Source: Candidatus Gastranaerophilales bacterium (GTDB lineage: Bacteria > Cyanobacteriota > Vampirovibrionia > Gastranaerophilales > Gastranaerophilaceae). From it: a stretch of 64,000 nucleotides of DNA. Positions 4,052-62,880 of the stretch are shown here, piece after piece (within the stretch, counting starts at the first letter, position 1; the number at the start of each line of letters is the position of its first letter). The position numbers and the translations under genes are program-made. Location of the stretch: the NCBI GenBank assembly GCA_944323165.1, contig CALURK010000005.1, forward strand, positions 1 through 64,000, written 5' to 3'. The notes under the pieces were generated by a model. That model was not told the origin of the DNA. It searched no databases and saw nothing but the letters and a program-made list of their open reading frames with translations.

Positions 4052-4083
4052 AAAGAAGCGGTAAATTAATTTACCGCTTCTTT
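4052..4083. terminator. Bidirectional terminator between convergent genes
   Basis: A perfect 32-nt palindrome (left arm AAAGAAGCGGTAAATT) lies 2 nt after the permease stop and 15 nt past the stop of the converging minus-strand gene. A-tract on the left and T-tract on the right allow it to terminate transcription from both sides. Confidence 0.85.
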
Positions 4084-4098
4084 AGTGTAGGATATTTA

Positions 4099-6285
4099 TT
4101 ATCCTAATACTTTATCTAAGTCACCAAGAATTCCTTCATGGTTTTGTCCACAGTTACAGTTACAAGTTACTTCACCTTCTACATTAACTGTTACGTTATG
4201 ATCTTTTATTGCTGCTAAAATCTTATCCAATTTAGCCATTAATTCAGAATCATCATAAGTAGAATCTTTGATATTATTTAATAAGTTAATTATTGTATCC
4301 ATTTTACTTAAGATTTTTGAAGAATTGCTATTTGATAGATTCATAAACTCGTCAAGTTTTTTAAGAATTGCGTCTGTATTAGGATCATCTGGCATTTTTT
4401 CTAAGATTTCGTCTTTTGCTCTTTCTATTGTTAAAGTAAGTACATCCATTTTAGCATTAATGTCTTTTAATATATCATTATTTCCACTGGTCATATTAAT
4501 TAAATCCTGTAATAATTTTTCAATAGAAGATAAATCAACATCGCCGCCAGTTACCTTAAAGTTGTTTATTGTTTCAATGATTTTTTCTGCATTTTCTTTT
4601 TGGTTTTTATCCATAGTATCAAGTTTTTCTAATACTTTGTTTAACAAAGCTTCTATGTTTTTACCGGTATCACCTGAAGCCTTAATAACTGCTATAACGT
4701 TGTTCAGCTGCGTTACAATATTAGCACCTAATTCAGATATTGCATTAAGTATATTTTTCTGGAATTTTTCATCCTGATCTTGAATTTTGGCAAGTAATTG
4801 ATTTGTTGCATCTATTTTGTCACCATTTTTACTGATTGCATCAAGAATTTTTTGCAACATTTCTTCTGTCATTGAACCATTGTTGAATTTGTCTAAGAGC
4901 TGTGTTAGTAAGTTGTTTGTAACATCTGTTTTGTCATTGTGGTTCTTAAGATACTCTTCAATTTTATCAAGAGCATTTTTAATTGCAGCATTATCTTCAA
5001 ATTGTTTATCGAATTTACCAATAATTTCATCAAGTTTTCCACTAATATCTTGACCAATTGATTCAATTGATTGGAGGATTTCTAGCATTTTTTCTAATTT
5101 ATCGCTAGTCATACCATCCATGTTTTGAAGAGCTTCCAGTATTTTATCTAAAGTCATACCATTTTCTTCATTTATCTTAATATCATCTTTTTGGTTTGTA
5201 ATGACTTGGTATAACAAGTTTCTAAGCTCTTCCATATAATGGTCTAATTGATCCATAGAAGTTGCTTGACCATTCTTAATTGCATTTAATATTGCTGTAA
5301 GTTGGGCATTAACATTTTTTCCATTAACTACTAGCGTTTCATTAGTTGCTTTTACTAAAGACTCAATTGTGCTAACAGTCGAGTTAATGTTTGTTAATAT
5401 TTCTATTATTTGATCTTGTTTATAACCTTGGTCGGTCAGTGAATTAGAGATATTTTTTAAATAGGTATTGTTATCGGTAAGCAGTTTTATTATTTGGTCG
5501 CCGTACTTATCTACCTTAAGTCCTAATTCATCCATTTTTGCTAATAAAGCATCAATACCTTCTTTGAAAGCTTCAATTAAAGCTTTTTGATCAGAAATTG
5601 AAATATTGATTACAGCGCTGTTACTGTTATTTATATCTGGTAAAATTTCTTCAGTGTCGTCACTACAACTGGTAAGTGCAGCTGCACCGGCAACAGCCAA
5701 TAAGCCAACACCAAGAGGTGCTGCAACACCAGTTGCAATTAAACCTATGCCAGTAGCTGCTGCACCTACTGCTAAGATAGGTCTGGCATTTTCCTTCACA
5801 AAATCAACAGTCTTATCCCAGAAACTTTCATTTTCTTGTTTTTTTACAGCTTTTTTACTATTATCTTTTACGGTTACAAGTTGACCTTTGCCATTCAAGG
5901 TAAATCGACGCCCTTCCAAGCCTTCTTGTTTTAAGAAATATTCCTCTTTAAGCAATGTTCCATCTGCTGCTTTATATTGAAAAGTATGTTTGCCTGTTTT
6001 TAAATCTTCTAAAACATCAACTTTTCGCCCTGATTTTAATGTGACTGTTTTTACTGTTTTAACAGTTGAGCTAAGTTGCACTTTCCCGTTATTGCTTTTC
6101 CCTTTGTTGAACAAGACAAAATCGCCAATTTCAGCTCTTCCTGCGGAGAAAGCTTCATTTAAGGCTTCAGCTTCTTGAGGGGTTAAACCCAGTTTTTTTG
6201 CTTCTGTTGCGTTAATTTTTCCATCCTTTAAGGCGGTTATAATTCTCTGCGCCTCCTCCGGATTAATTTTGTTAAAATCTACCAT
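4099..6285 (-). CDS. Large coiled-coil protein with hydrophobic segment and CNCNCG tail, sigma-28 controlled
   Basis: I do not recognise a named family for this 728-aa protein. Residues 1-48 look like a small helical pair (EEAQRIITALKDG, EAKKLGLTPQEAEALNEAF). Residues 50-150 look like a small beta-rich domain. Residues 168-204 are a long hydrophobic Ala/Gly/Val stretch ending in LTSC (Cys207), which resembles a lipobox but is internal. From about residue 225 to 690 the protein is one long heptad-rich, low-complexity helical region with many short IxxLLxxI-type repeats, so it should form an extended fibre or stalk. The C-terminus carries CNCNCGQNHEG, a possible metal or disulfide knot. The start has an AGGAG ribosome site, and a perfect FliA promoter lies upstream (6342-6368), tying it to motility. 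A role as a surface filament, tether or chemosensory accessory is inference only. Confidence 0.85.
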   Translation of the reverse strand: MVDFNKINPEEAQRIITALKDGKINATEAKKLGLTPQEAEALNEAFSAGRAEIGDFVLFNKGKSNNGKVQLSSTVKTVKTVTLKSGRKVDVLEDLKTGKHTFQYKAADGTLLKEEYFLKQEGLEGRRFTLNGKGQLVTVKDNSKKAVKKQENESFWDKTVDFVKENARPILAVGAAATGIGLIATGVAAPLGVGLLAVAGAAALTSCSDDTEEILPDINNSNSAVINISISDQKALIEAFKEGIDALLAKMDELGLKVDKYGDQIIKLLTDNNTYLKNISNSLTDQGYKQDQIIEILTNINSTVSTIESLVKATNETLVVNGKNVNAQLTAILNAIKNGQATSMDQLDHYMEELRNLLYQVITNQKDDIKINEENGMTLDKILEALQNMDGMTSDKLEKMLEILQSIESIGQDISGKLDEIIGKFDKQFEDNAAIKNALDKIEEYLKNHNDKTDVTNNLLTQLLDKFNNGSMTEEMLQKILDAISKNGDKIDATNQLLAKIQDQDEKFQKNILNAISELGANIVTQLNNVIAVIKASGDTGKNIEALLNKVLEKLDTMDKNQKENAEKIIETINNFKVTGGDVDLSSIEKLLQDLINMTSGNNDILKDINAKMDVLTLTIERAKDEILEKMPDDPNTDAILKKLDEFMNLSNSNSSKILSKMDTIINLLNNIKDSTYDDSELMAKLDKILAAIKDHNVTVNVEGEVTCNCNCGQNHEGILGDLDKVLG

Positions 6286-6341
6286 TTTACTTGTTACTCC
6301 TTTCTATATTTTCATAACAATACAATCCTACTTTGTTTTAG

Positions 6342-6368
6342 TTATCGGCATTTTTTTGAAAAACTTTA
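6342..6368 (-). promoter_or_regulatory. Perfect sigma-28 (FliA) promoter
   Basis: On the minus strand TAAAGTTT (6361-6368) and GCCGATAA (6342-6349) are separated by exactly 11 nt. This matches the enterobacterial FliA consensus at all 16 defined positions. It sits about 57 nt upstream of the ATG of the 728-aa coiled-coil gene, which has its own AGGAG site. A FliA-type sigma factor is encoded in this window at 23896-24579. Confidence 0.88.
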
Positions 6369-6591
6369 GGATATTTCATGTAATTGTTACAAAAATTAAT
6401 AATTGAGGGGTGTAATACTTATTATTGCGTGTTTTCTCGTGTGTTATATGTATATTAAAAAATTTTCTTACAAAAAATTTTACCTATTGTAAATAATTTG
6501 TTACAAATGTATTTTAGCAATTTCTAAAATACTCTAAAAGATTGATGAAAATCTTTGATAAAAGCTTTATTCTAATCTTGAGAGGTTACCC

Positions 6592-23895: not shown

Positions 23896-24579
23896 TTAGT
23901 AGTCCGTTCTTCCCTTAGATTTTAAATATTCCCGAATCTGGTTGAGTGAGTATTGTATAATTCTGGTAATTCTTGAAGGAGAAAGCCCTACCATTGTTGC
24001 AATGTCTTTGGCTTGCATATTTCTGTAAAATCTATATTCAACTACAGTACGTTCTTTTTGAGGTAGTTTAGCAATTGCTTGTTTTATTAGTCTACTCATT
24101 TCAACAATTTCAGCCTTTTCATCCGGCATTGCGGATGTGTCTTTTATAAAATCAAAAGGAGATGCGTTATCGGTTGCTGCAGCTGCAAGTCCATCAATAG
24201 ACAAAATCGTTTCATAAACAGCTTCTCTTACTTTTGTAGGTGAAATCGCAAACCCCATATCATCAGAGTTATCGTCATTAGAATTAACGGTATCCGAAAC
24301 ATAGCTGCTGTCATCTTTTTTATGTTTGAGCGTGTACCATTTATACCTATGTCTTAATTCATTTCTTATAGCCCATTTTACCGCCGTTGCAATATAGGCA
24401 TCATTATAATGAGCTAACTGTTCTTCTGTTTTTCCTTTAATTAAAGTTTGTACGGCAATAACACCTATACTAACCAATTCTTCATACTCAATCATATGGT
24501 TAGGAATACGTTTATGCTCTACTCTCGCTACTTTTTGTACAATACCGATGTACTGTTTAATTAAAGTTTTATTATCCAT
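23896..24579 (-). CDS. fliA: FliA/WhiG-type sigma factor (sigma-28 candidate)
   Basis: A 227-aa sigma-70 family protein lacking region 1. Region 2 is seen in IEYEELVSIGVIAVQTLI and AVKWAIRNELRHRY, and region 4 in LPQKERTVVEYRFYRNMQAKDIATMVGLSPSRITRIIQ. The size and the flhB gene 70 nt upstream on the same strand support a flagellar sigma factor. A perfect sigma-28 promoter at 6342-6368 provides a matching target. A general-stress sigma-B/F relative is the main alternative; the symbol is therefore tentative. Confidence 0.68.
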   Translation of the reverse strand: MDNKTLIKQYIGIVQKVARVEHKRIPNHMIEYEELVSIGVIAVQTLIKGKTEEQLAHYNDAYIATAVKWAIRNELRHRYKWYTLKHKKDDSSYVSDTVNSNDDNSDDMGFAISPTKVREAVYETILSIDGLAAAATDNASPFDFIKDTSAMPDEKAEIVEMSRLIKQAIAKLPQKERTVVEYRFYRNMQAKDIATMVGLSPSRITRIIQYSLNQIREYLKSKGRTDY

Positions 24580-24649: not shown

Positions 24650-25717
24650 TTAACCTTGTTTATTCTTATTTTTTAGCCCGTAAACAAATAATAGAATTTC
24701 TGCAACGGCCTTGTATAATTCCGGAGGAATTTGCTGATTAAGGTCAACCATTCTAAATAAAGCTCTTGCAACAGGTGCGTTATCAATAACTGGCACATTA
24801 TGATGTATTGCAATTTCAATAATTTTTTTAGCAATAAGCTCAGTTCCTTTAGCTGTAAGTGTAGGGGATTGCATAGTTTCAGCATCATATTTAAGAGCGC
24901 ACGCAACGTGGGTAGGGTTTCTGACAACAAAATCTGCATCAGGAACTGAATCCATAGCTCCCTGTTGAAGCATTTGCATACGTCTTTGTCTTAAAGCTGC
25001 TTTAACATGGGGATCTCCTTCAGAGTTTTTGTATTCATCTTTTATTTCTTTGAAAGACATTTTTTGATCTTTAAGGAATTTCCACTTCGTAACTCCATAG
25101 TCGGCAGCTGCAATAATTAAAAAAGCAATACAGGCTTTATAGATGAATTCAACAATAAGCTTGCCAAACTCTTTCATAACTGCGAAATTATTATCTATTG
25201 AAGCGAGCTTAAGAATGCTTTCTAAATGCTCTTTATAAACGCTCCAACCAACAAGACCCAAAATGAATACTTTTAATACGTTTTTTCCGAGTTCGAAAAG
25301 AGTTTTAACTTGAAAAAGGTTTTTAAAATATTTTGTAGGGTTTAACTTGTCGAGTTTAGGTACTAATGGTGCGGTTGCAACAAGAGGCCCCACTTGAATA
25401 AAATCTCCAATAATTGATACAAAAGCCGCAACAAACAGTATAGAGCCTATAATAGCAACGGTTGGAATGAGTTTGACGGTTAAGATGTAGGGTAGACCGA
25501 CCTCTGAAAGATGCTGATTGGGAATTTGTTCGTATAAAGCTCCGAATAAACCTACAATAAGCTTCCAAATAAGAGGCGCAAGCATATTTATGAAAGTAAA
25601 CATTACCAGAAGTGACAGTGCAACTGACACATCTTTAGATTTAACAACCTGCCCTTCTTTTCTAGCTCTTTCTAACTTCTGGGGCGTGGCATCAAATTGT
25701 TTGTCTTCATCACCCAT
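24650..25717 (-). CDS. flhB: Flagellar type III secretion protein FlhB
   Basis: A 355-aa inner-membrane component of the flagellar export gate that switches substrate from hook to filament. It starts with the cytoplasmic ATPQKLERARKEGQV segment, has four membrane helices, and carries the self-cleavage motif NPTH (VVRNPTHVACALKYD, about residue 270) followed by VPVIDNAPVARALF. The start has AGGTAG upstream. The neighbour downstream is the sigma factor gene. No other export-gate genes (flhA, fliP/Q/R) are adjacent, so flagellar genes are dispersed. Confidence 0.95.
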   Translation of the reverse strand: MGDEDKQFDATPQKLERARKEGQVVKSKDVSVALSLLVMFTFINMLAPLIWKLIVGLFGALYEQIPNQHLSEVGLPYILTVKLIPTVAIIGSILFVAAFVSIIGDFIQVGPLVATAPLVPKLDKLNPTKYFKNLFQVKTLFELGKNVLKVFILGLVGWSVYKEHLESILKLASIDNNFAVMKEFGKLIVEFIYKACIAFLIIAAADYGVTKWKFLKDQKMSFKEIKDEYKNSEGDPHVKAALRQRRMQMLQQGAMDSVPDADFVVRNPTHVACALKYDAETMQSPTLTAKGTELIAKKIIEIAIHHNVPVIDNAPVARALFRMVDLNQQIPPELYKAVAEILLFVYGLKNKNKQG

Positions 25718-26097: not shown

Positions 26098-26186
26098 AAA
26101 TACAGTAGTATAAAAATATAGTTATATAGTATTATTGATTTTTATATAAATTTGATTTAGCATGTGTATACAATCGGAGGTGTGTG

Positions 26187-34782: not shown

Positions 34783-36129
34783 ATGGAAGGCGTAGATCAG
34801 GAATATATAGACAATCTAAAGCATCGGGTTAGCGATAAGATAGAAAACCTTGAGTTGTATCAATTCAAAGGTAGCGTGTCAAAGCTTGTAGGTTTAACTG
34901 TAGAGGTAAAACTTCCTGGACTTAAAATTGGTGATTTGTGTTATATAGAGGCTTCTAACGGAGAAAAAAAACCAGCGGAAGTTGTCGCTTTTAAAGGTGA
35001 TGCAGCTCAGTTACTTCTTTTATATGATGGAACCGGTATTGGTCAAGGAAGTTTAGTTACAACGACAGGAAAGCCCATTATAATTCCTGTAGGTGATTTC
35101 CTTTTGGGAAGGTTAATAAATCCAATGGGAGATCCGATAGACGGAAAGCCCATGGATATAGAAGGAGCTTTGTGGCGCCCTGTAGAGGGACCTCCTCCCG
35201 GACCTTTTGAAAGACCTATAATAACAGAAATGTTTTCTACGGGGGTAAGAGCTATAGATGCTTGTTTGACCTTTGGGTGCGGACAGCGTATGGGGCTTTT
35301 TGCAGGTTCAGGTGTCGGAAAAAGTACCTTGCTTGGTATGATTGCAAGAAATTCTGATGCCGACGTAAACGTTGTTGCACTGATAGGAGAACGTGGAAGA
35401 GAAGTTAAAGAGTTTGTTGAAGATGCTTTAGGACCAGAAGGTATGAAAAAGTCAGTATTGGTATGTTCTACAGGAGATCAGCCGCCTTTAATCAGACAGA
35501 AGTGCCTTTTAACAGCAACTGCCGTGTGCGAATATTTTCGAGATCAGGGGAAAAAAGTTTTCTTAATGACAGATACAGTCACTCGTTGTGCTATGGCTGG
35601 CCGTGAAGTAGGTCTTTCAATAGGTGAACCTCCAACGATGAAAGGCTATCCGCCTTCAATATTCTCTTGGCTTCAAAAAGTTCTTGAAAGAGCTGGAAAT
35701 AGTCCTAAAGGTTCAATTACCGCTTTTTATACCGTTCTGATGGAGGGGGATGATATAAATGACCCTATCGTAGATACTGTAAGAGGTATTACAGACGGTC
35801 ACATTTTCTTGTCAAGAAAAGTTGCGGAGGCCAATCACTATCCTGCTATAGATATTTTGGGGAGTATTTCAAGGTTGATGTCTGCAATCGCAAGTCAACC
35901 TCATAAGGAAGCTGCTGCTAAATTAAGAAAAATTATGGCAATGTATAGGGAAAATAAAGATTTGATTGATGTAGGTATGTACCAGCCCGGAACTAACCCC
36001 AAGTTAGACATTGCAATAGAGATGATGCCCAAAATAAACGCATTTTTACAACAAAGAACTACGGATTCTGTAAGTATGCAAAATACCATTGATACATTAA
36101 TAAATATGATGTCTGGTGTCGATATTTAA
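34783..36129 (+). CDS. fliI: Flagellar export ATPase FliI
   Basis: A 448-aa F1-beta-like ATPase that powers or primes the flagellar type III export apparatus. Walker A is GLFAGSGVGKSTLLG (about residues 170-184), Walker B is VFLMTDTVTRCA, with GERGREVKEF and GYPPSIFSWLQKVLERAG typical of FliI/YscN. The preceding EGPPPGPFERP segment is also characteristic. A virulence-type injectisome ATPase is the alternative, but flhB and flagellin in the same window favour flagella. fliH and fliJ are not adjacent. Confidence 0.92.
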   Translation: MEGVDQEYIDNLKHRVSDKIENLELYQFKGSVSKLVGLTVEVKLPGLKIGDLCYIEASNGEKKPAEVVAFKGDAAQLLLLYDGTGIGQGSLVTTTGKPIIIPVGDFLLGRLINPMGDPIDGKPMDIEGALWRPVEGPPPGPFERPIITEMFSTGVRAIDACLTFGCGQRMGLFAGSGVGKSTLLGMIARNSDADVNVVALIGERGREVKEFVEDALGPEGMKKSVLVCSTGDQPPLIRQKCLLTATAVCEYFRDQGKKVFLMTDTVTRCAMAGREVGLSIGEPPTMKGYPPSIFSWLQKVLERAGNSPKGSITAFYTVLMEGDDINDPIVDTVRGITDGHIFLSRKVAEANHYPAIDILGSISRLMSAIASQPHKEAAAKLRKIMAMYRENKDLIDVGMYQPGTNPKLDIAIEMMPKINAFLQQRTTDSVSMQNTIDTLINMMSGVDI

Positions 36130-62034: not shown

Positions 62035-62880
62035 TTATATTAAACTCAAAGCTATGCTAGGCGCTTGGTTTGCAGTAGCGAGCAATGTCGCTGATGCTTG
62101 TTGTAAAATTTGCGCCTTAATATAACTTGAGGATTCTTCTGCGACATCTGCATCTTTGATAGTAGACAGCGATGAAGTCAAATTTTCTATCTGTACATCT
62201 AATGCGGAAGAAGCCGATTCTAAACGGTTTTGAGCCGAACCGATTGATGTAACCCTTGCAGAAATATTCGAAATAGCATCATCTATGGTTTGTAATTTTG
62301 ATGCTGCAGTATCACTAGCCGCGCAAGCTGCTGCAAACGTAGTTATATTATCTTTTAAAAGTCCTTGCGTATTTGCTGCTTCAAATAAAGTATCAGGTAA
62401 TTCAATTTTGCTATTGTCATCTGCATACAAGCCCACCTGTAATGAAATTGCGTCAGCAGAGCCATCCATCAGTTTTATGTCGTTATATTCAACGTTTTCA
62501 GAAATTCTATCAATTTCCTCTAATCTTGCTGTTATCTCTGCTTCTATTGCATCTAATGATTCTGAACCATAAGTCCCGTTTGCAGCTTGTTCTGTCAAAT
62601 CACGTACCCTTTGTAAATGAGATGTGATTAAGGCATAACTATCCTCTGCTGTTTTTAGTAAATCAAGCCCCATTGATGTATTTTCCGTTGCAATATCCAG
62701 AGAACTCAATTTTGTAGTCCAATTTGAAGCTATTGAATATCCTGCAGCGTTATCTGAGGCACTATTTATTTTGTACCCTGTAGTCATTCTTTCAATAGCC
62801 TTATTCAAGCTATTTGTAGCCGAATTTAAGTTTCTTTGAACAATCAAAGACGAAATATTTGTATTTATTGTAAGAGCCAT
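62035..62880 (-). CDS. Flagellin
   Basis: A 281-aa flagellin made of the conserved D0/D1 ends and a short middle, close to the minimal size. The N-terminus is ALTINTNISSLIVQRNLN ... LSTGYKINSASDNAAGYSIA-type text (here MTTGYKINSASDNAAG), and the C-terminus is NRLESASSALDVQIENL followed by the IKAQILQQASATLLATANQ segment. It is the filament subunit, exported through the FlhB/FliI apparatus and possibly glycosylated by the Maf protein at 45514-47403. The leader holds two AGGGA sites and a hairpin. No sigma-28 promoter is visible upstream; a TATAAT box lies at 62988-62993. Confidence 0.95.
   Translation of the reverse strand: MALTINTNISSLIVQRNLNSATNSLNKAIERMTTGYKINSASDNAAGYSIASNWTTKLSSLDIATENTSMGLDLLKTAEDSYALITSHLQRVRDLTEQAANGTYGSESLDAIEAEITARLEEIDRISENVEYNDIKLMDGSADAISLQVGLYADDNSKIELPDTLFEAANTQGLLKDNITTFAAACAASDTAASKLQTIDDAISNISARVTSIGSAQNRLESASSALDVQIENLTSSLSTIKDADVAEESSSYIKAQILQQASATLLATANQAPSIALSLI

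Follow-up and report, generated by a model that had tools for sequence, protein, structure and literature searches.

A probably FliA-controlled, genus-restricted 728-aa protein and a second flagellum-type export apparatus in Gastranaerophilaceae

The 728-aa protein described here is, with a probability of about 0.5, a genus-restricted and fast-diversifying surface or secreted member of a FliA (sigma-28) regulon that is decoupled from motility and tied to a second export apparatus. The promoter of the gene is conserved, the regulon to which it belongs is decoupled from flagellin, and the second apparatus is universal. The regulon probably serves this second apparatus as a non-swimming, flagellum-like export machine. 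The gene lies in the window, a stretch of 64,000 nucleotides from contig C5 of a Gastranaerophilales metagenome-assembled genome (MAG; 1.93 Mb, 99.8% complete).

Promoter, leader and sigma factor

The gene and its flanking signals, all on the minus strand, are the following.

6342 to 6368, minus strand: FliA (sigma-28)-type promoter, TAAAGTTT-N11-GCCGATAA, with an A-rich spacer
6316 to 6334, minus strand: conserved 5'-UTR element AAAGTAGGATTGTATTGTT, specific to orthologues of the 728-aa gene
6297 to 6304, minus strand: ribosome-binding site GAAAGGAG, recognised by sequence and conserved in orthologues
4099 to 6285, minus strand: 728-aa open reading frame, no family, orthologues in six of the seven other same-genus genomes
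4052 to 4083, minus strand: intrinsic terminator, a 14-bp stem with a T-run, after the stop codon of the 728-aa reading frame

The sequence-only reading had claimed a perfect sigma-28 promoter, and the claim holds. Positions 6368-6342 of the minus strand spell TAAAGTTT TTCAAAAAAAT GCCGATAA, with 0 mismatches to the consensus and a spacer of 11 nt. Against a matrix of 106 sites from relatives the promoter scores 41.7 bits (shuffled maximum 5.0), and it is the sole window site above 10 bits with that matrix. Four exact copies (10-12 nt spacer) are found in the 1.93-Mb genome, against 0 in the reversed control and 0.008 expected by chance from base composition. The same promoter stands 5' of the ATG in 7/7 same-genus genes (the window copy and the six orthologues found). 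The control counts and this footprint rule out a chance or internal match as its origin.

Transcription is predicted to start at about 6335. The start codon (ATG at 6285) follows a ribosome-binding site and lies 57 nt downstream of the promoter; an AAAGGAG-type ribosome-binding site is common to all seven same-genus genes. The leader element has the common form AAAGTAGGATTGTA, is present in 6/7 of these genes and is absent from every other regulon leader. An imperfect inverted repeat (AACAAT..TCCTA / TAGGATTGTATTGTT, window 6316-6400) flanks the promoter in several orthologues. Judging from sequence, the leader element AAAGTAGGATTGTATTGTT and the repeat could be a regulator site or an RNA-binding site. 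CsrA-like sites are found in 31 of 142 regulon leaders, compared with 16.7 in shuffles, which is suggestive only. Since the 14-bp hairpin and T-run (4083-4052) lie just past the stop codon, the 728-aa gene is a one-gene transcription unit.

The genome is flagellated and encodes a FliA-type sigma factor. The FliA/WhiG-type sigma at C2:54019-54831 scores 229 bits against the TIGR02479 cut-off of 189.6. FliA orthologues are found in 184 of 190 family genomes and in all 159 high-quality ones. A divergent FliA-like sigma (P0002, 227 aa, window 23896-24579) adjoins the second FlhB gene and scores 80 bits, below the cut-off. P0002 is a less likely reader of these promoters than the universal sigma, P0001, a canonical FliA whose region 4 has the typical sequence. 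A further sigma resembling P0002 (212 aa) lies at C2:132997.

Architecture and relatives of the 728-aa protein

The protein consists of a small N-terminal domain, a hydrophobic segment with LTSC, a broken heptad-repeat helical region and a Cys-rich C-terminus, encoded as follows.

5836 to 6285, minus strand: N-terminal ~150 residues, modelled by AlphaFold2 as three short helices and a small beta domain
5662 to 5781, minus strand: hydrophobic segment, residues 169-208, ending AALTSC(207)SDD, internal and resembling a lipoprotein signal with lipobox
4198 to 5601, minus strand: helical region with heptad repeats (residues 229-696), the register interrupted by Gly/Pro
4102 to 4197, minus strand: C-terminal motif VTCNCNCGQNHEGILGDLDKVLG, in all seven same-genus proteins

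The protein had been described as lacking any known domain. This is borne out by Pfam and NCBIfam, in which no profile, including those of flagellar and chemotaxis families, exceeds its cut-off, and by a PDB sequence search, in which no relative was found. The helical region has weak Pfam matches to ALIX, HEAT and Baculo_PEP_C, which were disregarded because most are below cut-off or of a kind common in repetitive helices. In a protein search of 190 family genomes, six of the seven others in the genus have a convincing orthologue; outside the genus, matches are weak and partial. Identity to the window copy is 28-46% in an alignment that also includes one more distant homologue. By sequence comparison, then, the protein diverges fast and is restricted to its genus. 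The orthologue in G128 is seemingly interrupted near the N-terminus.

The AlphaFold2 model of the whole protein has a mean pLDDT of 51 and, being of low confidence, was left out of the fold search. In the N-terminal ~150 residues, which differ strongly between species in the alignment, pLDDT is mostly 56-78, with values under 50 around residues 52-73 and 143-150. Coiled-coil character exists locally: 42% of windows of 28 residues score above the 95% level of shuffled sequences. Along residues 229-696, however, the heptad register shifts, the longest Pro/Gly-free run is 46 residues, and the helices are predicted by AlphaFold2 to be about 10-30 residues each. A continuous coiled-coil fibre would keep one heptad register through most of its length, and no such register was found, so the coiled-coil assignment survives in its local sense and the giant rod of tens of nanometres is unsupported. 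The C-terminus C-x-C-N-C-G-x-x-HEGI-x-G-x-L-(ED)-x-x-LG is found, slightly altered, also in the paralogues L088 and L090.

No N-terminal signal peptide is found in the predicted reading frame, whose hydrophobic segment begins at residue 169. This stretch is followed by a match to the lipobox [LVI][ASTVI][GAS]C, AALTSC at residue 207. The hydrophobic-x[TSA]SC motif is detected in 5/7 same-genus proteins by script and in a sixth by eye (G128, with LTNC); the G108 orthologue has no hydrophobic segment. Across homologues the motif sits at residue ~100-300. It raises the alternative of a (lipo)protein anchored in the membrane and routed by Sec through the internal hydrophobic-LTSC segment, with FliA setting the timing only and no type III route involved. 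The motif recurs amid diverging flanks and also, as a hydrophobic stretch with lipobox-like [LVM][TS]SC, in five other large helical proteins (L086, L087, L088, L089, L090), and as an internal motif it is rare among the 54 window genes, where it is found in the 728-aa protein and one other membrane protein. All this speaks for the Sec route. Against it, the motif lies 150-300 residues into the protein, and neither the G108 orthologue without the segment nor the one with LTNC fits well. The Sec route is thus a serious, though rather doubtful, alternative.

A FliA regulon in species with and without flagellin

The regulon was assembled by pattern searches and the list of sites is incomplete. Across eight genomes of the genus, a two-mismatch pattern finds 12-29 sites per genome, compared with 0-1 in reversed controls; the window genome has about 20 related sites beside the four exact copies. 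The matrix of 106 sites reads TAAAGTTTTtnAAAAAATGCCG[AT]TA with a conserved A-tract, which is partly selected for because the sites were collected with an A-tract pattern. Sites precede reading frames that have ribosome-binding sites and group into recurring families. Several families are small (50-aa, 51-aa, 89-aa, 137-aa, 156-aa, 121-aa and 42-aa, with good ribosome-binding sites) and have no match of note in Pfam; a further one comprises proteins of 330-530 aa with helical N- and C-termini. Most regulon members are uncharacterised proteins without a signal peptide. Larger members with recognisable domains are FliD, a subtilase, a glucosaminidase, an HD/GAF-domain protein and EF-hand proteins. 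L138 and L199 contain HExxH-type metalloprotease-like motifs, recognised by eye, and have no Pfam match. Protease or glucosaminidase features, with no obvious signal peptide, are seen in L138, L178, L199, L018 and L027.

One family, named after L002, resembles export substrates of the axial or needle type. Its members begin with MG[LM]xxSQxRLLxLTAR, with conserved helical termini and a variable middle (110-700 aa). They are found behind FliA promoters in both flagellated and flagellin-less species (L002, L012:705-1037, L097, L112, L131, L166, L209, L240, L243 and L251:16870-18396). In L002 the terminal helices are predicted at residues 2-50 and 272-333. A Foldseek search with this family gave nothing at E<0.001. 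VIA-align matches it to flagellin chains with Z of 8-9.4, and unrelated coiled coils score higher. Several window proteins (at 26184, 29309, 36328, 41170, 50331 and 53954) have short Asn/Pro-rich starts with an F-x-G/A motif (NVGFKAY, VSFRG, VTFGA, INFQA), which is possibly a common N-terminal signal.

The sequence-only reading suggested scanning the genome for the promoter and looking for flagellar genes behind it. Such genes are few: one flagellin and, in a sister species, FliD (L149), nearly all other genes being uncharacterised and non-flagellar. The flagellin is one of five in the window genome (L017/L040) and its promoter has two mismatches. No promoter is found at the other four, including the one at window 62035-62880, or at the FlgL-like gene L044.

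In E. coli and Salmonella, sigma-28 (FliA) controls a late flagellar regulon with flagellin and FliD. The regulon described here has the same promoter consensus and spacer, a FliA-family sigma, and flagellin and FliD among its members. Unlike the enteric one, most of its members are non-flagellar, most flagellins stand outside it, the spacer is A-rich and strongly conserved, and both sigma and regulon are kept where flagellin is missing.

Flagellin_N is found in 76 of the 190 family genomes and in 61 of the 159 high-quality ones. The regulon is not restricted to these flagellated species. With a one-mismatch pattern, 22 flagellin-less genomes yield 108 sites against 22 in reversed controls, and in flagellin-less genera the promoter precedes members of the same families (L223, L225, L230, L238, L240, L243, L097, L112). 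Because FliA and its promoter are kept in flagellin-less genera, sigma-28 control need not mean a role in motility here. The 728-aa protein had been taken for a lineage-specific motility or surface component; the good matches within the genus only agree with lineage specificity, a surface location is plausible, and the motility part does not follow from the promoter.

The protein may instead be a lineage-specific late flagellar component, such as a filament accessory, sheath or motor-associated protein, made together with flagellin and cap for swimming. Its exact sigma-28 promoter is of a type also found at one flagellin and at FliD, and every genome with a true orthologue is flagellated, the protein being known from one flagellated genus only. 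With a stricter pattern, genomes outside the genus have 2.6 sites each with flagellin and 1.0 without, which means that part of the regulon tracks flagella, although the genomes are not independent. However, four of five flagellins have no such promoter, most members are not flagellar, the regulon is kept where flagellin is absent, and the 728-aa protein has no homology to flagellar proteins. A swimming role is therefore unlikely.

A second flagellum-type export apparatus

The preferred reading, in which the regulon is tied to a second apparatus, draws on a second set of flagellum-type genes. The FlhA family (FHIPEP) is found in 189 of 190 genomes. Flagellated genomes have an ~870-bit copy, which is the flagellar one, and an ~725-bit copy; flagellin-less genomes have the ~725-bit copy alone. 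The latter, FlhA2, keeps 84-97% identity from genus to genus but has 38% identity with flagellar FlhA; two flagellar FlhAs compared with each other are 74% identical. FliP likewise has two copies in 5/5 flagellated genomes sampled and one in 17/17 flagellin-less ones. FlhA2 is encoded in an operon with the order FliE-FliF-(346 aa)-FliH-FlhA, and a four-gene rod operon (FlgB-, FlgC- and FlgF/G-like) is found in the sampled genomes, flagellated and flagellin-less alike. Outside the window, the loci of the apparatus are L249:10581-16547, L250 and L252. One gene assigned to it, and probably a second, are in the window.

24650 to 25717, minus strand: FlhB2, a second FlhB homologue (PF01312), below the NCBIfam cut-offs for flagellar FlhB and SctU
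34783 to 36129, plus strand: FliI/SctN-type export ATPase, over TIGR01026 and below the cut-offs for FliI clades 1-3 and SctN

The ATPase probably belongs to the second apparatus. Another FlhB-like reading frame adjoins flagellar FlhA on contig C22.

The second set falls below NCBIfam flagellar cut-offs (FlhA 706<772, FliF 111<130, FlhB 333<349 bits) and below injectisome cut-offs (SctV 587<692, SctU 309<358, SctN 545<605 bits), with the exception of FliE, which reaches its NCBIfam cut-off. FliE and FlgB/FlgC, the mark of a flagellum-type system, are present (PF02049, PF00460, PF06429). In this respect the set differs from non-flagellar type III systems, with which it has the export core in common; FliE, FlgB and FlgC are treated as flagellum-specific in the study of those systems (Abby & Rocha 2012, PMC3459982), and FlhA2 and FlhB2 are under the curated injectisome cut-offs.

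The second apparatus is near universal in Gastranaerophilaceae, which matches the universality of FliA. In five flagellin-less genomes the FliA gene is close to the second rod operon, at a distance of about 4-6 kb in G073, G022, G001 and G038 and, on the other side, of about 2 kb in G035; unrelated genes intervene. No FliA promoter was seen at the genes of the second apparatus.

Two other bacteria offer parallels. Chlamydia has sigma-28 with FlhA/FliF/FliI homologues (PMC10597470, PMC2830194), and thus, as here, sigma-28 without flagellin beside flagellum-derived type III components. The measured chlamydial regulon consists of two genes (hctB, tsp), whereas here pattern searches give tens per genome, and the apparatus here includes rod proteins. 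Buchnera retains flagellum basal bodies without flagellin (PMC8109811), a reduced flagellum-type apparatus likewise thought to be kept for non-swimming reasons; unlike that of Buchnera, the one described here is found in many species next to a full flagellum of its own gene set.

Gene sets of this kind have been described as incomplete or lost flagella (Di Rienzi 2013, PMC3787301; Soo 2014, PMC4040986), and a search of the openly accessible literature found no paper in which they are regarded as a system in their own right. On the reading of those papers, with which the flagellum-type components (FliE, FlgB/C) agree, the apparatus would be a flagellum in decay and the regulon a remnant of lost motility. 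This is very improbable given that FlhA2 is better conserved across genera than the two flagellar FlhAs and that the second set is near universal and coexists with a complete flagellum.

If the regulon is tied to the second apparatus, FliA would, as established sigma-28 biology suggests, transcribe the 728-aa gene late, once the basal apparatus has been built. The targets of FliA would be late proteins, exported or at the surface, that go with a second type III apparatus made of the FliE-FliF-FliH-FlhA operon, FlhB, FliI, FliP and a FlgB/C/F/G-like rod. Co-conservation and the absence of N-terminal signal sequences suggest that this apparatus exports the 728-aa protein. The internal hydrophobic LTSC segment near residue 207 probably anchors the protein in the membrane; the great distance of its lipobox from the N-terminus makes ordinary lipoprotein processing doubtful. 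The segmented helical coiled-coil region would be displayed outside the cytoplasm, with the conserved Cys-rich tail at its end, and the protein may act at the interface with host or neighbour cells. More tentatively, FliA may chiefly be the late switch of a second, flagellin-independent, rod-bearing secretion machine, whose substrates would include a family of axial-like proteins, EF-hand and protease-like proteins, and coiled-coil proteins anchored, like the 728-aa one, by an internal lipobox. In that case the 'incomplete flagella' reported in non-motile gut Melainabacteria would be a secretion system that is complete and conserved.

Gastranaerophilales, relatives of cyanobacteria, are common in animal guts. 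If nearly all of them have a second export machine whose probable late genes are tagged by the FliA promoter, candidate secreted proteins could be listed for each genome, and sigma-28 control would be uncoupled from swimming across the family. This bears on how Gastranaerophilales make contact with the host or with neighbouring cells.
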